Origin: a virus
DNA: 26,526 bases
IMG/VR virus record: IMGVR_UViG_3300045074_000017
Span: 1 to 26,526 of that record
Direction: 5' to 3' (one strand)
Positions 2,273 through 26,526 of the stretch are shown here, piece after piece. A model generated the notes under the pieces. That model had not been told where the DNA came from. It saw only the letters and a program-made list of their open reading frames with translations, and searched no databases. The translations under genes were made by a program, and so were the position numbers. Position 1 is the stretch's first letter. Each line of letters starts with the position of its first letter.

Positions 2273-2655
2273 AATGCCCTAGATTTAGTTTTTAGCCAGA
2301 TTAAAACTCCCACACACAGTGTGCGAGTTTGACTTGACAGCGTCACCTTTTGCACTGACTTTTTCCTAGCTAACTATTTGAAAATGAACGAGAAATGCTA
2401 ATTTAAGGGGTTTTTTTACCAAAAAAATGAATTTAAAAAAAACCTTGTAAAAAGCGAAAAAACGCTAAAATTATACAAAGAACAATAAGGAAAGTCGAAA
2501 GTGAGCACTAAACGAGTTTTCCCTTATTTTTCAAGCATTTAGCCCAAAAATCGCTAGTGCTCGGAGTGCCGACGTATTGCAAAATCTAGACAATATGTGT
2601 GGATTTTGAGCGGTTTTACCCCTTTCAGACCCGTCCGGAGGGGTGGTTTGAGCAT

Positions 2656-2890: not shown

Positions 2891-3251
2891 GGGCAAGTCG
2901 TATTTGCCGGCCAAATTCACAGGTGTTGTTCGTAAGTTCCTTAACGAACCGGCGAGCAAGGTAGACGCTTTTAACAGCTTGTCGCAGTCAATGGGCTTTA
3001 CTTACGAACCAAAAATTTATGAGGTGTTTATTGCCCACCTGCTCTTCTCGGCTTTAACGAGGCAGGACGTAAGCCTGCTTTTGAATATTATTGGCAGACT
3101 TGACCAAGACGAGCAGGAGAAGGGAATCCCGATCGACGAAGACCGTCTACGGGCGATGCTAGCCAGGCACGTCCGTCCGGTAAGTTGTCAAGAAGCTATT
3201 GACAAAAAAAAGGATGACCCCAGTGGCGACGACAATGGGAAAGCCGATTAA
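2883..3251 (+). CDS. Probable terminase small subunit (122 aa)
   Basis: First sizeable gene of the rightward operon, overlapping the large terminase by several tens of bases. A small, mostly helical, charged protein in this position is usually the small terminase subunit, which recognises phage DNA and loads it on the large subunit. The sequence has a basic N terminus (GKGKS), a helical core with Leu-rich stretches around residues 50-75 and an acidic/Lys-rich tail. I see no unambiguous HTH signature, so the call rests on position and size. The ribosome site is a weak G-rich stretch, so the gene may rely on coupling from the short frame upstream. Confidence 0.5.
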   Translation: MGKGKSYLPAKFTGVVRKFLNEPASKVDAFNSLSQSMGFTYEPKIYEVFIAHLLFSALTRQDVSLLLNIIGRLDQDEQEKGIPIDEDRLRAMLARHVRPVSCQEAIDKKKDDPSGDDNGKAD

Positions 3252-7847: not shown

Positions 7848-9089
7848 ATGGAAGAGCTCAAGGAACTGTTTGAAACCCTACAAAAAGACTGGCACGTATA
7901 TAAGTCTGAAATAAAAGCGTTTGAGGAATCAGGACGACAAACCGCTGGGCGTTTGGCGGAGCTTGACCAAAAGTTGGAAAAGATAGAGGCCCAGCTCCAA
8001 AAGACCGAAGACCTTATCAACAAAGTCCGTTCGGAAAAGCAGGAGTTGGAAGCGCAGGTGGTGAAGCTGTCTCGACCGGTAGTAGAGAATACTTCAAAAT
8101 ACCTGTGCAAAGCGCTCGAGCTCGAGGCAACTCGTCCTGACGCTCAAGAACGGAAAGTGGCTTTTTGGCGGGCGCTATACGAGCCCGACCGAATGCCTTC
8201 AGAACAAAAAGCTCTGACTCTAAAAGACCCCGAAGCTGGAGGATATCTGGCTCCACCTGACTTTGTGAACGAATTGATAAAGGGCGTAATCGAAAGTGCT
8301 CCTGTTCTCGACTTAGCTAGAGTTCGGTTAACGGCAAGTGGGCAGATGGTAATCACTCGTAGATCAGGCACCATTACCGCAGTTCGACGGGGGGAGCTGG
8401 AATCCAAGTCGGAGACGACAGGACTAGCTTATGCTAGTGAGGCAATCACACTTCCTGAAGTTTACTGCTATCAGAACGTGTCCGTTCAGCTTCTCGAAGA
8501 TGCCGCTTTCAATCTGGAAGCAGAATTGTACGATGAGTTCCGGACGGCAATTGCGGCGAAGCTGTCTTCGGAATTTGTTAGCGGGCTTGGGCCGTCGAAT
8601 AATCAGATGGAGGGGCTTCTTACCAACTCAAGCGTCCAGAGCGTCATTAGTGGAAGCGCTTCTGCTTTGACCGCTGACGGCCTGATAACCCTAGTTGAAA
8701 GCCTTCCTGCCGCTTATAAGGCAAACGCTAAGATGCTCTTGAACCGGTCGACTCTAGCCGCTTGCCGTAAGCTTCAAGACACGGCAGGGACTTTCGTATG
8801 GGCGCCCGGAACTTACGGCCGTAATGACGCCGACCAGCCTACTCTTGCCGGCGTCCCTTACGTCGTTTGCGCTCACATGCCGAACGTTGGGAGTGGAGCT
8901 TATCCTATCGTAGTCGGCGACTTCAAACGAGGTTACTTGATAGGGATGAAAGCTCAACTTGCCATTAAGCGGCTTGAAGATTCCACGCTTGACCAAGCAG
9001 GTTATGTCGCCTTCTCTGGACGTATGCGGGTTGGCGGCGGTGTGGTTCTTCCCGAAGCAATCTTGAAGCAGGTTGTGTCAGCTTCATAA
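7848..9089 (+). CDS. Major capsid protein, HK97 fold, with N-terminal scaffold (delta) domain
   Basis: 413 residues from ATG 7848 with an ideal AAGGAGG site. Residues 1 to about 90 are a charged coiled coil (heptads of Leu with Glu/Lys), the delta domain that acts as built-in scaffold and is removed by the protease encoded just upstream. The rest is the HK97 fold of the phage_capsid family: LKDPEAGGYLAPPDFVNELI (about residues 124-143) matches the N-arm, SVQLLEDAAF the E-loop/spine region, and SGRMRVGGGVVLPEAI the C-terminal P-domain strand. No separate scaffold gene is seen, consistent with the fusion. It should be the most abundant structural protein. Confidence 0.95.
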   Translation: MEELKELFETLQKDWHVYKSEIKAFEESGRQTAGRLAELDQKLEKIEAQLQKTEDLINKVRSEKQELEAQVVKLSRPVVENTSKYLCKALELEATRPDAQERKVAFWRALYEPDRMPSEQKALTLKDPEAGGYLAPPDFVNELIKGVIESAPVLDLARVRLTASGQMVITRRSGTITAVRRGELESKSETTGLAYASEAITLPEVYCYQNVSVQLLEDAAFNLEAELYDEFRTAIAAKLSSEFVSGLGPSNNQMEGLLTNSSVQSVISGSASALTADGLITLVESLPAAYKANAKMLLNRSTLAACRKLQDTAGTFVWAPGTYGRNDADQPTLAGVPYVVCAHMPNVGSGAYPIVVGDFKRGYLIGMKAQLAIKRLEDSTLDQAGYVAFSGRMRVGGGVVLPEAILKQVVSAS

Positions 9090-21239: not shown

Positions 21240-21473
21240 TTAACTTTTCTTACTGTATTCATCACTCCCCTTTGACGGGGAGCTGTCTGCTTGGAACTTT
21301 AGAGCCAGTCCCGTAGCCTTTAGCGCCTCAAGCGCTTGCTCGAAGCACGAGTCGCAAAGACTCCCTGACCCTAGCCAATGTCCAGGTTCGTAAAGTAGGA
21401 CAAAGCCTAAAGTTACCTTTTTGGGGTTCAGCGCCAACCCCCCGCACTTGTCACATTTTTTGTAAGTCTCCAC
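21240..21473 (-). CDS. Small zinc-ribbon-like protein (77 aa)
   Basis: GTG start (21471-21473) with an AAAGGAG site. Two Cys-x2-Cys pairs, CDKCGG near the N terminus (C7, C10) and LCDSC (~40-43), are about 30 residues apart, as in zinc ribbons. The C terminus is Ser/Lys-rich. It is the last gene of the leftward operon and overlaps the preceding gene by 23 nt. A small zinc ribbon could bind nucleic acid or a host polymerase, but there is no direct evidence for a role. Confidence 0.6.
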   Translation of the reverse strand: METYKKCDKCGGLALNPKKVTLGFVLLYEPGHWLGSGSLCDSCFEQALEALKATGLALKFQADSSPSKGSDEYSKKS

Positions 21474-21660
21474 CGTCGTCTCCTTTCCATGCGTGACACC
21501 GCTTTGCCCACAAGCGCAGGCATCGAGTCTTTAACCCGCTTGGACAAGCGGCGCAGTAGTTGGTGTCCTCTGCTTCGCTTACTGTTTTTCCACAGGGCAT
21601 GATTAATGCCCTGATGTCTGCTTCGCTCATTTCCGATAAGTCAGCTTGAGATAGTCTCAT
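21451..21660 (-). CDS. Cys-rich miniprotein of unknown function (69 aa)
   Basis: ATG 21658-21660 with a GGGGGAAGG-type site. Five Cys (PCGK; YCAACP; TRCLRLW; KRCHAW) and an aromatic-rich patch in the second half suggest a metal-binding or disulfide-rich fold. The N terminus is acidic and helical. It overlaps both neighbours, so it is translated as part of the operon. No family recognised. Confidence 0.55.
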   Translation of the reverse strand: MRLSQADLSEMSEADIRALIMPCGKTVSEAEDTNYCAACPSGLKTRCLRLWAKRCHAWKGDDGGDLQKM

Positions 21661-21910
21661 AGTCCTTCCCCCTTTTCACCAGCCAGTCATATAGACTGAC
21701 GGTAAGAGCCCGCAAATCCCTTTCCAAACCGTCAGGGATCGGTTGTCGGGCTTCACGAGCCATTTGCAGATAATTCAGGGCGTCGACCAGCTCCGCTAAA
21801 GCCTCAAGCATAAGGTCCCGGGAATTTGTAGCAGGGTCGAAAGTTCCGTATTTCCCTAGCCCTAGTTTGAACCGAGCTTCTTGAAGCTTCCTCACTGCTT
21901 TTTCGCTCAT
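21641..21910 (-). CDS. MazG-like all-alpha protein, possible nucleotide pyrophosphohydrolase (89 aa)
   Basis: AAGGAGGGG precedes ATG 21908-21910. The core KYGTFD, then RDLMLEALAELVDALNYLQMA, matches the pattern in small phage MazG-like proteins: acidic residues E36, E40 and D43 on one helix would bind Mg. Such enzymes hydrolyse (d)NTPs and may adjust the nucleotide pool or lower alarmone levels. The protein is short, and only one acidic helix is clear; the second EExxD helix of full MazG is missing or degenerate. The start overlaps the end of the nuclease gene by 4 nt. Confidence 0.5.
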   Translation of the reverse strand: MSEKAVRKLQEARFKLGLGKYGTFDPATNSRDLMLEALAELVDALNYLQMAREARQPIPDGLERDLRALTVSLYDWLVKRGKDYETISS

Positions 21911-22272
21911 GACACCCCTCCTTCAGCCCTAAACCATGTCAATACAGTGTCCCTGGTCAAGGGGAAGGTGTTCGGATACCTATACCAGCATTCCCCGCTT
22001 TCAGTCCAGACACAAAGCCAAACGGGGACACTGGTCGGCAAAGTCGACAAGAAACCTCTCTGACTAGGCCGGAGTAGTTTCCAGGGTGCTTGAGGGGGGC
22101 TTTTCAGCTTCTTTCTTTCCTTGCATTCCACCCAAACGGAAAGCCCGTTTGGGAGAATTATGAGAAGGTCAAAGATTCCGGAGGCTTGAAAAGCGCCTCC
22201 ATGGGTCTTGAGCACCCAATAACCTTCTCGACGCAGGAATGTCTGCAGATTGCGAACCTTACGACTTTCCAT
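21907..22272 (-). CDS. PD-(D/E)XK nuclease, VRR-NUC / resolvase-like (121 aa)
   Basis: AGAGGAGG site before ATG 22270-22272. The motif GAFQASGIFDLLIIL gives the aspartate D35 and VWVECKERKK gives E49 and K51, a D-x13-E-x-K PD-(D/E)XK active site. RPSQRGFLSTL downstream resembles the Q-containing helix of VRR-NUC nucleases. Small stand-alone proteins of this kind in phages are thought to cut branched or flap DNA during replication or packaging. It lies in the early operon with a helicase, so recombination or replication repair is the likely context. Confidence 0.72.
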   Translation of the reverse strand: MESRKVRNLQTFLRREGYWVLKTHGGAFQASGIFDLLIILPNGLSVWVECKERKKLKSPPQAPWKLLRPSQRGFLSTLPTSVPVWLCVWTESGECWYRYPNTFPLTRDTVLTWFRAEGGVS

Positions 22273-22274
22273 AC

Positions 22275-22484
22275 TTATCCTCCTCTCTTTAGCAAAGCGT
22301 CAACATCGGACTTTAGAAGCCGATATCTGGCTTTTTTGCGGTTAGGAAACAATTTGCTGGCTGGCAAAGTCCCGGCTTCTATGAGCCTGTAGACCATCTG
22401 CTCGGAAATTCGCAGATATTCTGCGGCTTCTCTGACCGTTAGTAGTTCGGGCGCTTTTACTGTCTGCCTTTTTTCTCTTCTCAT
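22275..22484 (-). CDS. HTH DNA-binding protein, excisionase/MerR-like (69 aa)
   Basis: Starts in the TGATG overlap with the gene before, with a GGAGGGG site. The sequence LTVREAAEYLRISEQMVYRL followed by IEAGTLPA and a basic wing (NRKKARYRL) is the HTH_17 winged-helix pattern. Excisionases and small phage regulators share it. As no integrase is present, a regulator of the phage promoters, for example the repeats at 2114-2131 or the palindrome at 2656-2676, is more likely than an excisionase. The specific target is a guess. Confidence 0.8.
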   Translation of the reverse strand: MRREKRQTVKAPELLTVREAAEYLRISEQMVYRLIEAGTLPASKLFPNRKKARYRLLKSDVDALLKRGG

Positions 22485-23218
22485 CAGCTCCCCTCCTCGT
22501 GGTAAGTGCCGTTACTTCCCACTATGTCCGGCATGTCCGCCAAAGTAATTCCGATCTGCAAGCCCGACAAGGCCTCTGCCATAGCTCTGACTGCAGTTTG
22601 TTGCTCCGTGCTTAACGGAGCGACGAAGTCAAATGTCACCTGCGAATAGACTATCCCTGTTGAGCTTTTAGTATGTATTAAACCAAACCGAGTTACCGCC
22701 TCCTTGACCGTCAGCCCCTTCTCAATCAACTGTAATCGATATCGGGAAAAGTTTGCCAACGAGGTAGGCGGCAGTATAAGAATCCTAGGGAGGATGCTTC
22801 CCTCTCTAGCTATAGCTAGGAGTTGAATTTGTTTACACGCTTGACCCCGCCCCTGAAGGGCAGAGCCAAAGCGGCTGAAAGGGCACTTCGCACAGCGCCC
22901 TTTGAGTCCGACTACCAGGTCAAGCGAATAGCAGTCAGGGGGTCTCGACTCGCCCGTGAACCCCCCTTCCCAGTAAGTCCTCATCGGCTTGGAATACACT
23001 ATAATTCCTTCAAAGGTCGGCAAGTATTCCCCCTCGTCAAGAGTCCATACCGTAGTCCCTGCGGCGGGGACTTTAATCTTGCCCAAAGCCCCCCAGGGAA
23101 TAGGCTCGTGGGCGAACTCTTCCTGAAGCAGGCTTATTGCCTTTTCCAAGATCACAGCGGCAAGAGACGCCTCCTGCCGCACCGCTATAGAGCCGTTGCT
23201 TTCTTTAGACTCTTTCAT
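22484..23218 (-). CDS. Conserved-looking phage protein with a four-cysteine cluster (244 aa)
   Basis: ATG 23216-23218 with GGAGGGAGG, overlapping the gene before by ATGA. The N-terminal part is helical, the middle has C96 (PPDCYS), C109-x2-C112 (CAKCPF) and C128 (GQACK), probably a zinc site, followed by a LPPTSLANFSRY segment. I recall similar PPxC...CxxCP...C...LPPTSL proteins in other phages of this type near helicases and recombination genes, sometimes suggested to bind ssDNA. That role is unproven. Its place after the helicase and before the nuclease fits a replication or recombination task. Confidence 0.5.
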   Translation of the reverse strand: MKESKESNGSIAVRQEASLAAVILEKAISLLQEEFAHEPIPWGALGKIKVPAAGTTVWTLDEGEYLPTFEGIIVYSKPMRTYWEGGFTGESRPPDCYSLDLVVGLKGRCAKCPFSRFGSALQGRGQACKQIQLLAIAREGSILPRILILPPTSLANFSRYRLQLIEKGLTVKEAVTRFGLIHTKSSTGIVYSQVTFDFVAPLSTEQQTAVRAMAEALSGLQIGITLADMPDIVGSNGTYHEEGS

Positions 23219-23427
23219 GATAAATCCTCCCTCCTTTGGTCTAATTCTCTCTGCTCACGGAGCAAAGCTTCAAAGGCTACCTCTGCCGAATCTATCGTTA
23301 TTAGCAGATAGTGGCAAGCGCTAGGAGCTACCCCTTCCAGCAACCTTTGTGCTTCACGCAAGCGCCCCAGAGCTCCTTCCAGCATATAGCCGGCGGTTAC
23401 GATTTTCTCTTCACTAGTCATTCTCAT
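23215..23427 (-). CDS. Small helical protein of unknown function (70 aa)
   Basis: AAAGGAGG site before ATG 23425-23427. The protein is predicted almost wholly alpha-helical and strongly charged, with one Cys. It overlaps the previous gene by 14 nt and ends in an ATGA overlap with the four-cysteine protein. No family recognised. Its size and place suggest an accessory of the neighbouring replication proteins. Confidence 0.5.
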   Translation of the reverse strand: MRMTSEEKIVTAGYMLEGALGRLREAQRLLEGVAPSACHYLLITIDSAEVAFEALLREQRELDQRREDLS

Positions 23428-23866
23428 CTGTTCTTCCTCCTTTGTGTCTAACGGTTATTTTTTTACTAAGGACATGCCCTATTCCAGGCACATCCTTGCC
23501 CTTGGTCAAGGACGCAAGGGTCAACCATTGGATTATAAGCTCACCTCCTTTCCGAACAAACGTATCAATTTCCTCGGGGGTCAGATTGCTTAACCTAACC
23601 CCCACTTTCCCCATTTTTTCTGGGGGGCAATTGTTTTTTAGCCACTCCCAGGCTTGAAAGTGGTCTTTTATCGACGGGATAAAGACGGGGCGCACCGATA
23701 AAGTCACCCCGTCAGCCGTCGTGACCGACCTCATCCCCTCCGAGGTCAGTTCGTCAAAGATGATTTCGGCGAGGGAATTCTTCTCCCGCCCTACCTCTTC
23801 CAGCTCTTTCTTGAGCTGGGCTTCTCTGTCGACTAATTCCAAATACCTGCTTATCAGCTCTTCCAT
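23414..23866 (-). CDS. Phage protein with N-terminal coiled coil (150 aa)
   Basis: Start chosen at ATG 23864-23866, which forms TAATG with the helicase stop and has an AAGGAGAAG site; an upstream in-frame start would extend 26 codons into the helicase gene. Residues 1-45 are a charged coiled coil (a run of EL, KKELEE). The rest has a pattern I know from many phage early proteins of unknown function: a GVTLSVRP strand, then an AWEWLKNNCPPEKM helix and a LTPEEIDTFV segment. Unlike a Gam protein it is short. No enzyme motif is seen. Confidence 0.6.
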   Translation of the reverse strand: MEELISRYLELVDREAQLKKELEEVGREKNSLAEIIFDELTSEGMRSVTTADGVTLSVRPVFIPSIKDHFQAWEWLKNNCPPEKMGKVGVRLSNLTPEEIDTFVRKGGELIIQWLTLASLTKGKDVPGIGHVLSKKITVRHKGGRTDEND

Positions 23867-25197
23867 TATTCTTCTCCTTTCTCTTGCAGTTCCTGCAGGA
23901 CTTCGTAAATGGTTTCCTGCAAAGTTCGTTTTGCCTTCAAGCACCGCAAAATCTTTTGTTCAACGGTGCCAGCAAGGTACAAAACGGACACTTCTACAGT
24001 CCTAGTCGCCCCCTGCCGGTGAGACCTGGCTATAGCTTGCTGGTATAGTGCTAGGTCATCGGTTAAATCGAAAAAGATTTGCCGAGGGGCAAATTGCAAG
24101 TTCAAACCAATCCCCCCTACCCGGGGATTGACGACTAGGATTCCTGCTTTTTTGTCCAAGAACCTCGAAACCCTTTCATGTGATGTTCCTTCAACGACGG
24201 GGAACCCCTTTTCAAGCAGATAGCGAGGAAGGGAACTTTGTATCGCTTGCCATTCAACCCAGATAATCGTGGGCACTTCAGACGCCTCTAAGAGCTCTAC
24301 TAGCGCCCGGGTCTTAGTTAGGCGGTCAACGGGGATCAGAACTTCAGCGCTTTGCTCGACGCTTCCAAATGCGCTGTGATAAACGATCCCGTCGCACGCG
24401 GTTCGTAAGCCGGCTAGAATTTTACTGGCCGTTAAAAACGAAATGAAAGCGTTCTGCGGGCTATTTATGCGATGTTCTCGAACGATTTGATTGTAAAACC
24501 CCCTTTCTTCATCTGAAGGGGGGAGGGGGCATTCCTCAAGAACAAGGGGCAGGTTCATACCCACTTGTTCTCGGGTAATGATGAGCGTATAAGGGGAAAC
24601 CCTTGCCAGGATTTCCCTTTCTGCGCCCGGCTTTGGGGCGCAGATTTCGTTAAAGTGCCCTACAGTGAAGTATTTGTTCTTAAAAGCCCACCACGACTCC
24701 GGCCATACCCCTAGAGGCTTATAAACCCCGTAGGTATCAGCCAAAGAGTTTGTGATAGGCGTCCCCGATAAGACGTAGACCCGCCCTGCCCTTTTTGAAA
24801 GGGCAAAGGCGGATTTTGTTCTTTGCGCCGTCCAATTTTTGACAAATTGTGCTTCGTCAAAAATTAGAACTGGAATGTGGGTGGTGCAAAGCCTGGCAAA
24901 CTCTGCCAGGCGGGAATATGGGACTATGAGCCAGTCAGATTGACTCATAGCCCATGCCTGCAGTTGCAGGGTTCTCTTATTCCCCGTGAAAAGCCGAGGA
25001 GGGGCATACCCCCACTTTGCCGCCTCGGCTTCCCACGTCAATAGGGTTGTCAGAGGGGCGACAACTACCCCCCTAGTCCCAGCTAATAGCTCCAGCCCGA
25101 CACGGGTCTTTCCTAGCCCAGTGGCCAAGAATAACGCCGCTCGGGCTCTAGCCCGGGCGAAGTCCACCGCCCGGGCTTGCCATGGTTGCAAGCTCAT
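23866..25197 (-). CDS. SNF2-type superfamily 2 helicase (443 aa)
   Basis: ATG 25195-25197. It has the helicase motifs in order: Q-motif-like QPWQ (4-7), Walker A GLGKT (27-31), motif Ia PLTTLLTW (48-55), DEAQ (114-117), SGTP (144-147) and motif VI QQAIARSHRQGATR (386-399). The SHRQG form of motif VI is the SNF2/RapA type. The length, about 440-450 residues, is that of the compact phage SNF2 helicases that often lie in early operons. It would remodel or unwind DNA, possibly during replication or recombination. It is preceded by an intrinsic terminator only 22 nt upstream. Confidence 0.92.
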   Translation of the reverse strand: MSLQPWQARAVDFARARARAALFLATGLGKTRVGLELLAGTRGVVVAPLTTLLTWEAEAAKWGYAPPRLFTGNKRTLQLQAWAMSQSDWLIVPYSRLAEFARLCTTHIPVLIFDEAQFVKNWTAQRTKSAFALSKRAGRVYVLSGTPITNSLADTYGVYKPLGVWPESWWAFKNKYFTVGHFNEICAPKPGAEREILARVSPYTLIITREQVGMNLPLVLEECPLPPSDEERGFYNQIVREHRINSPQNAFISFLTASKILAGLRTACDGIVYHSAFGSVEQSAEVLIPVDRLTKTRALVELLEASEVPTIIWVEWQAIQSSLPRYLLEKGFPVVEGTSHERVSRFLDKKAGILVVNPRVGGIGLNLQFAPRQIFFDLTDDLALYQQAIARSHRQGATRTVEVSVLYLAGTVEQKILRCLKAKRTLQETIYEVLQELQEKGEE

Positions 25198-25218
25198 TTT
25201 TTTACCCTTTCGTCTTTC

Positions 25219-25250
25219 AAAAAAAAGGACGAGGAATTATTCCTCGTCCT
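25219..25250 (-). terminator. Intrinsic terminator inside the early operon, overlapping coding sequence
   Basis: On the minus strand, 12-bp complementary arms (AGGACGAGGAAT at 25226-25237 and its complement at 25239-25250) are followed by eight T residues (25219-25226 on the plus strand as A). This is a textbook Rho-independent terminator. It overlaps the last codons (Glu/Asp-rich) and the TAA of the preceding gene. The SNF2 helicase starts 22 nt further on with no room for a promoter, so most transcripts should stop here unless read-through or antitermination occurs. Confidence 0.85.
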
Positions 25251-25446
25251 CATCCTCAATGACTAGATAATTTACTTTAGCATCTTCTGAACACTCATCA
25301 CAAACAAGCAAGCATCTTGCTTGCCGGTCGAGTCCATACTTCGAGCCCAGGCGGGCTCGGAGCTCCTGTATTGTTTCCGCTAATTCGAGGAGCCGTGAAA
25401 GCTCCTCAAATTCCTTTTCGCCTAGTTTGTAAACTCTTTTTCTCAT
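25237..25446 (-). CDS. Small acidic-tailed protein with CDEC motif (69 aa; longer start possible)
   Basis: Start chosen at ATG 25444-25446, which has an AAAGGAG site. An in-frame ATG at 25582-25584 overlaps the preceding stop as ATGA and would give 115 residues, adding 46 that are nearly all Lys, Glu, Arg and Gly and are translated from the polypyrimidine tract. The core has a helical segment LEEL-like (ELSRLLELAETIQELRARLG), a CLLVCDECSED motif and an acidic end (EDEDEE). Its acidic C-terminal codons double as half of a terminator stem. No family recognised. Confidence 0.55.
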   Translation of the reverse strand: MRKRVYKLGEKEFEELSRLLELAETIQELRARLGSKYGLDRQARCLLVCDECSEDAKVNYLVIEDEDEE

Positions 25447-25573
25447 TTTCTTCTCCTTTCTCGTTTTTTTGTTTTTTGTTTTTTTGTTTTCTTGTTTTCC
25501 TCTCTTTTCTCCCTTTTCTCCCTTTTCCTCTCTCTCTTTTTCTTTTTTTTCTCTCCACCCCCCTTTTCTCCTC
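25447..25573. repeat. 127-nt polypyrimidine tract with periodic G
   Basis: Nearly pure C/T on the plus strand with only five G and one A. The G bases are at 25463, 25471, 25478, 25486 and 25494, spaced 8, 7, 8 and 8 nt by runs of T. A second part has repeated CCCTTTTCT units. On the coding (minus) strand it is a purine-only leader of the 25237-25446 gene rich in AGGAG-like sites. It could melt or form triplex DNA, or act as an A-rich mRNA leader. Confidence 0.8.
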
Positions 25574-25580
25574 GAGCCCC

Positions 25581-26066
25581 TCATGGGCGGGTGAGGAATC
25601 TAAAAGTGAATATGCCGTCCACAAACCGCAGAAGCTTTTCCGCTTCTGCGTATTGTTTCCTTTTCCTTTCTTGTTGCCGCCAAACTTTCCTAAGCTCTTT
25701 TACCCTCTCGAGATCGTCGACGAGGTCGTCGACGTCCTCGAGTCCTATGAAAATCTCTTCGCTCCAGCGCCCCGACATCATAATGTGATGCCATTCATAC
25801 CCTCGAGGAGCATTCACCCCCCCCTGTAGCGCCTCGTCCTTCAGCAACCTAGGGATGCGAAGCCCTAGCAGGCTGACCGGGAACCGGCCGCTCGCTATAG
25901 CCTCTTTCCCCCGGGTTGACAAGATGCGACCGCCAGTTTGAGCGGCGAACCAGCTCGCCACTCTTTCCATGGCGGACGCCCCCGGAATCCTCGGCTCGGA
26001 GTTCAGAGAAACTATCAACTCCCTAATTCTGCTCTCGATGTCCTCTTTTTTACTTTTTGCCGTCAT
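25581..26066 (-). CDS. First gene of the early operon, unknown function (161 aa)
   Basis: ATG 26064-26066 with AGGAGGAG, about 29 nt after the expected start of transcription from the strong promoter at 26102-26129. It is the first and probably most expressed early protein. The N terminus is charged and helical, then an AMERVASWFAAQTGGRILST stretch, a RGYEWHHIMMSGRW segment and a coiled-coil region (VDDLVDDLERVKEL). The EWHH does not match HNH nuclease spacing. The position is typical of host takeover proteins, but that is inference. Length is intact and no frameshift is seen. Confidence 0.6.
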   Translation of the reverse strand: MTAKSKKEDIESRIRELIVSLNSEPRIPGASAMERVASWFAAQTGGRILSTRGKEAIASGRFPVSLLGLRIPRLLKDEALQGGVNAPRGYEWHHIMMSGRWSEEIFIGLEDVDDLVDDLERVKELRKVWRQQERKRKQYAEAEKLLRFVDGIFTFRFLTRP

Positions 26067-26129: not shown

Positions 26130-26245
26130 TCCCCCCAGCGATTTTTTTTCATTTTTTTTGATTTTTCGACGTAAATGGTTGAAAAATAAAGGAAAAATTT
26201 TTTTATTTTTTTTCATTTTTTTTCTGCGGCGCCCCAAAAAACGAG
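26130..26245. other. AT-rich gap with exact 19-bp repeat (candidate origin)
   Basis: A-T8-C-A-T8 occurs exactly twice (26141-26159 and 26205-26223, 64 bp apart), with further A/T runs between. There is no gene. The long T-runs would bend and melt easily, and it is next to the replication gene's terminator and the early promoter. This makes it a reasonable origin candidate, though the region 2103-2762 is an alternative. The 26224-26245 end contains a GGCGCC block and an A-run. Confidence 0.35.
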
Positions 26246-26356: not shown

Positions 26357-26526
26357 TCAGAGCAGGCTCTCACGACCCTTCAGCCCCACTCCCAGATAAA
26401 AGCGTCCCTGGGCGGCTCTCACAAACCGGAAACGATTTTTTAGCAGATTATGGAACTTTAACGGAGACAGAATGTTCTTCGCTGGAACCTTTTCCCCTTC
26501 GCACCAGCTCAAGTAAGCGGAATACA
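26357..26526 (-). CDS. 3' end of the primase-helicase gene (second piece)
   Basis: Minus-strand continuation of the gene at 1-2102. Bases 26400-26526 repeat the codons at 1-127, and 26357-26399 add the last 14 codons and a TGA stop. The reading frame is preserved across the join, which independently supports circularity. The protein ends with Gly-Arg-Glu-Ser-Leu-Leu. Confidence 0.9.
   Translation of the reverse strand, partial: YSAYLSWCEGEKVPAKNILSPLKFHNLLKNRFRFVRAAQGRFYLGVGLKGRESLL
26400..26526. repeat. Terminal direct repeat, right copy
   Basis: Exact second copy of bases 1-127. It carries the same stretch of primase-helicase codons on the minus strand and should be removed when the circle is closed. 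Confidence 0.97.

Follow-up and report, generated by a model that had tools for sequence, protein, structure and literature searches.

A putative intrinsic terminator that overlaps a stop codon between co-directional phage genes

Why would a phage carry a strong transcription terminator in a gap of 39 nt between two co-directional genes? This question is raised by a viral sequence of 26,526 nt (IMG/VR record IMGVR_UViG_3300045074_000017; "the window" is this whole stretch), in which a hairpin with a T-run lies on the minus strand at the end of a small gene and just before the gene for an SNF2-type helicase. A first-pass annotation of the window had suggested that the terminator ends a two-gene immediate-early unit and that an early protein might switch it off. 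We asked whether the terminator is likely to be real and how it could act.

The gene setting

The first and last 127 nt of the window are identical (1-127 and 26400-26526), as is typical of circular assembly overlap, so the contig represents a phage genome that is either circular, with a length of 26,399 bp and an end repeat of 127 nt, or terminally redundant. The plus strand carries the structural genes, with the terminase at 3199 and an HK97-type capsid at 7848 (TIGR01554, 9.1e-79). The minus strand encodes a P4-family primase, whose gene spans the contig ends, followed by two small genes that we call g1 and g2, the SNF2-type helicase, and about eight small genes. Both g1 (25581-26066, 161 amino acids, ribosome site GGAGGAG) and g2 (25237-25446, 69 amino acids, ribosome site AAGGAG) are ORFans, and the g2 protein ends with VIEDEDEE. 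The helicase gene (23866-25197; PF00176, 3.2e-12; phrog_62, 2.3e-77) is the first one behind the terminator. The close-set genes beyond it (21240-23868), which were identified as open reading frames and by profile matches, include a DUF7307-like gene, an ORF, phrog_23155, HTH_17, a nuclease-like phrog_93 gene, and further ORFs. These genes probably share the helicase transcript.

The best-scoring promoter of the minus strand is a consensus sigma-70 promoter at 26129-26102, just upstream of g1 (TTGACA-16-TATAAT with a TG before the -10 element; 12/12 match). Between the end of the primase gene and this promoter is a weak terminator-like hairpin (26278-26252, minus strand; CTGTCA/TGACAG and then, past a short gap, T7). 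Since the primase unit ends in such a weak hairpin, its transcription could reach the g1-g2 region and feed it as well. We also noticed an element of about 35 nt, TTATTTTTCAAnCATTTAnnnCnAAAAATC, that is present twice: one copy is upstream of the early promoter (26159-26190, minus strand), and the other lies where the primase and terminase genes diverge (2518-2550, plus strand). A third copy was not seen in the window. This element is possibly an operator or part of an origin.

The hairpin at the end of g2

On the minus strand, GAGGACGAGGAA (25251-25240) is followed by a TAA loop (25239-25237), TTCCTCGTCC (25236-25227), and eight Ts (25226-25219), so that the whole terminator (25251-25219) reads GAGGACGAGGAA-TAA-TTCCTCGTCC-TTTTTTTT. 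The gene end, the stop codon, and the terminator are packed within 33 nt: g2 ends with GAG GAC GAG GAA TAA (Glu-Asp-Glu-Glu-stop), which runs directly into TTCCTCGTCC and the Ts. With an offset of -15 nt, the stem starts ahead of the point where the g2 stop codon ends. Its core has 10 Watson-Crick pairs, 6 of them G-C, and a predicted stability of -18.4 kcal/mol. The first-pass annotation described a 12-bp stem and eight Ts; the hairpin and the Ts are as described, but 12 pairs are reached only by counting two of the Ts twice, in A-U and G-U end pairs. It had also stated that the stem encodes the acidic C terminus of g2, which is true of the 5' arm (Glu-Asp-Glu-Glu). The loop is the stop codon of g2, and the 3' arm is non-coding. 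The proposed double constraint on this sequence was not established, as only one arm is coding, the other is free to follow the codons, and no homologue of g2 was found for comparison.

By stability, this is the top hairpin with a T-run on the minus strand. In 150 shuffles that preserved dinucleotide content, hairpins that match it in stability and have a T-run of this kind arose at a mean of 0.033 per strand. The 111-nt context of the terminator has a folding z-score of -3.1, and the pair probabilities in the core are mostly 0.93-1.0. The element is also one-directional: when the plus strand is read, TCATCC and not a T-run comes after the stem. A score of the d'Aubenton-Carafa type was +40 to +53 for this terminator versus -57 to -27 for the hairpin at the end of the primase gene. 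Based on its sequence, we classify the element at 25219-25251 as a real intrinsic (Rho-independent) terminator, and we infer that it terminates transcription in vivo.

As had been noted, the terminator follows the second early gene and lies close before the helicase gene, whose ATG at 25197 is 21 nt past the last T. The spacer (25198-25218) holds the ribosome site of the helicase gene (AAAGGG), and when we scanned these 21 nt we found no promoter that fits, which bears out the earlier statement that there is none between. Two weak promoter-like sites, at 25303 and 25265, overlap the end of g2. The second of these (25265-25236) has a 9/12 match, with TAGTCA as the -35 element and AATAAT as the -10 element at the hairpin loop. 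Among all such sites of the minus strand, these two have ranks 53 and 66, which is the background level, so a separate promoter for the helicase gene is unlikely.

Terminators at stop codons and in short gaps

We surveyed 400 kb from each of two Bacillota-type genomes and 300 kb from E. coli K-12, with the same simple gene caller and the same terminator rule throughout (a hairpin of -10 kcal/mol or below, with at least 6 T in 8). (We label genomes G098 and G286 "Bacillota" because they were taken from the same phylum as the MAG behind locus L129, which is titled Firmicutes bacterium.) In the two Bacillota-type genomes, the stem overlapped the stop codon for 4 of 30 and 8 of 40 gene-end terminators (12/70 together). 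The corresponding counts were 0/25 for E. coli K-12, 1/6 for Lysinibacillus stretches, 1/16 for Thioalkalivibrio, and 3/39 for other phage and viral loci. One of those three is at the integrase gene of the Thermoanaerobacterium phage THSA-485A. Stop-overlapping terminators are thus ordinary in Bacillota-like hosts. This agrees with reports that B. subtilis has terminators a few nucleotides past stop codons because transcription outruns translation (PMC7858274), and that in E. coli the ribosome almost fully represses the lambda tR2 terminator when a stop codon lies within a few bp, with activity regained at distances above about 30 bp (PMC4824070).

A terminator inside a tight co-directional gap is rarer, but not special. 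Within co-directional gaps of at most 100 nt, we found terminators in 9 of 886 phage or viral cases (about 1%), 4 of 333 from Bacillota stretches, and 5 of 212 from gammaproteobacteria. The terminator between g2 and the helicase gene is among the stronger examples.

The likely host

The host is probably Bacillota-like. Strong GGAGG-type ribosome sites and a TTGACA/TATAAT promoter speak against a host from the Bacteroidota. The order of the helicase and phrog_23155 genes is kept in eight element loci of Bacillota type and likewise in two annotated phages, one of Thermoanaerobacterium and one of Faecalibacterium. The closest relatives of the terminase are in genomes of Kapabacteria and Ignavibacteria, at 42-43% identity. 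Hosts with runaway transcription have been suggested to have purine-rich genes (PMC13323073). The coding purine bias of the window is 0.52-0.55, which is under that of one sampled Bacillota genome (0.565) and over that of the other (0.500), so it does not identify a host of this kind.

The phrog_23155 protein (22484-23218, minus strand) is encoded 0.6-2.2 kb downstream of the SNF2 helicase in the window and in loci L145-L152, and it is also near an SNF2 helicase in the two annotated phages. Judging from this gene order, the two appear to form a conserved pair within a replication module; the phrog_23155 protein has no assigned role.

Some of the Bacillota-type elements (L145, L146, and L150) have terminators upstream of the helicase gene, but these are not at the junction with it and are not homologous to the terminator in the window. 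L146 and L150, which are from two different Bacillota-type genomes, share a 36-nt hairpin of identical sequence (L146:7393-7428 and L150:10754-10789; -27 kcal/mol). It has a T-rich tail and precedes the SNF2 match by about 0.9 kb.

How the terminator might act

We propose, with moderate confidence, that this is a leaky terminator inside an operon, which would hold g1 and g2 at high levels and the replication genes at low levels. RNA polymerase would start at the promoter at 26129-26102 and transcribe g1 and g2. While the T-run is being synthesized, the hairpin GGACGAGGAA/TTCCTCGTCC would form, and most polymerases would release. The released mRNA would retain the full stop codon of g2 and about 18 nt more, so it should be translated normally. 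A minority of polymerases would read through into the helicase gene and the replication genes behind it. The two small first proteins would then be made in large numbers, and the helicase and its neighbors in small numbers. A compact genome, and a probably Bacillota-like host that tolerates terminators at such places, may explain why the stop codon forms the loop. We favor a leaky terminator because it requires no further component and agrees with the anatomy: the strongest hairpin with a T-run coincides exactly with the end of a gene and is oriented in a single direction. On the other side, a very efficient stop would leave about nine genes short of transcript if read-through were not adequate. 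Conservation does not add support, as no relative of g2 was found. A non-stop mRNA of the arfA type was also considered and is ruled out, as polymerase would be released only after it has passed the stop codon.

The best rival to a leaky terminator is that a ribosome relieves termination, which would apply if the host couples translation to transcription. A ribosome that ends g2 translation on the TAA in the loop would cover the arms and block the hairpin, so that the helicase gene is transcribed, and termination would occur only when translation of g2 lags or is repressed. The 5' arm and the stop codon are within a ribosome footprint, g2 has a strong ribosome site and an open purine leader, and the near-stop repression of lambda tR2 in E. 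coli (PMC4824070) is a precedent. Nevertheless, we think that this is unlikely, because stop-overlapping terminators were absent from our E. coli sample and were common in Bacillota, where polymerase outruns ribosomes (PMC7858274), and because no alternative structure was better than chance. (A switch in which the 3' arm hides the ribosome site of the helicase gene had a stability of just -7.7 kcal/mol, which was matched by 62% of shuffles.) The stronger form of this idea, that the terminator is a sensor of g2 translation and that a ribosome on the TAA melts the hairpin and thereby licenses the helicase and replication genes, seems improbable to us. If it were true, then a small early protein's own translation would gate the replication module.

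The phage might instead control the terminator by processive antitermination, with g1, g2, another early product, or a leader RNA overriding it later in infection. A strong terminator that precedes about nine genes, two ORFan early proteins without an assigned role, and an odd 134-nt polypurine leader upstream could all be explained this way. We consider it quite unlikely, as no gene of the unit, g1 and g2 included, matched N-, Q-, or NusG/LoaP-like proteins or other antiterminators in Pfam, PHROG, or NCBIfam, and no RNA family from Rfam was matched. Also, with a single strong terminator in the unit, there would be little work for a processive system. The earlier suggestion of an antitermination switch run by an early protein therefore finds no counterpart among the families we searched, and a dedicated switch is not required, because low-level read-through needs none. 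The terminator does divide g1 and g2 from the genes from SNF2 onward, and it lies downstream of the best promoter, but to call these two genes an immediate-early unit is an assumption. Another view is that the terminator fully closes the g1-g2 unit and that a promoter overlapping the end of g2 serves the helicase gene, for instance the site at 25265 with a start near 25229. Either this site or the one at 25303 would spare the helicase gene's ribosome site, but with both at background level and far weaker than the g1 promoter, we find this quite improbable. Finally, the hairpin could be due to chance, or it could stabilize the 3' end of the mRNA without terminating transcription. Given how few such hairpins are expected by chance, the exact placement at the gene end, and the eight Ts right after the stem, this is extremely improbable.

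Under the leaky terminator that we prefer, this would be an ordinary element, while if read-through is controlled by translation or by the phage, it would be a small regulatory switch. In any case, it is a clean site where the levels of early versus replication genes could be set.

Relation to known systems

The terminator between g2 and the helicase gene is a known kind of element, an ordinary device packed neatly into a small space. In filamentous phages (fd/M13), a central terminator between genes VIII and III of the coat-protein operon sets gene dosage. By analogy, each of the two terminators separates a small gene from a gene downstream of it in one unit, and read-through would set the ratio. 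The coat-protein operon is unrelated to the unit studied here.

Rho-independent terminators that lie at stop codons or overlap them have been described for runaway-transcription hosts (Johnson et al. 2020, as related in PMC7858274). They share with our element a stem that begins before or at the stop codon, a G+C stem, a short loop, and a T-run. Those terminators are at operon ends, whereas ours lies between co-directional genes 39 nt apart, in a phage whose host is predicted. Terminators that are repressed by ribosomes (lambda tR2 constructs, PMC4824070, and pyrBI-type attenuation) also have a stop codon within a ribosome's reach of the hairpin, but these are tested constructs in a coupled host. 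The phage antitermination systems (lambda N/Q, put RNA, and LoaP) have in common with our phage a terminator ahead of later genes, but we found neither a protein nor an RNA element of those systems here.

g1, g2, and the polypurine leader

We did not identify any relatives of g1 in Pfam, PHROG, NCBIfam, phages, or viral contigs, or any meaningful match to PDB sequences, and its single-sequence structure model was too poor to use (pLDDT 40). No relatives of g2 were found either. The structure model for g2 has a pLDDT of 80, and a fold search with it gave no confident match (none with E below 0.1). Viral contigs gave no relative of g1, g2, the helicase, or the phrog_23155 protein that was close enough for a conservation test, and the exact terminator hairpin was not present in any of these contigs. 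A search of phages and plasmids gave no DNA match.

Base composition at 25446-25580 (minus strand) marks the 134-nt polypurine leader of g2 (25447-25580), which is 93% purine. A stretch of 111 nt without T (25446-25556) is mostly in this leader; the next longest on the strand is 42 nt. Because it has no T, the leader stays open in frame with g2, and g2 could have a Lys/Glu/Arg-rich extension of 46 amino acids that starts at an ATG overlapping the stop codon of g1 (ATGA). The internal start with its own ribosome site looks more likely than this extended start. Within the codons of g1, there is a perfect 9-bp inverted repeat, CGCAGAAGC...GCTTCTGCG, at 25627-25650, which resembles a terminator only on the antisense strand.
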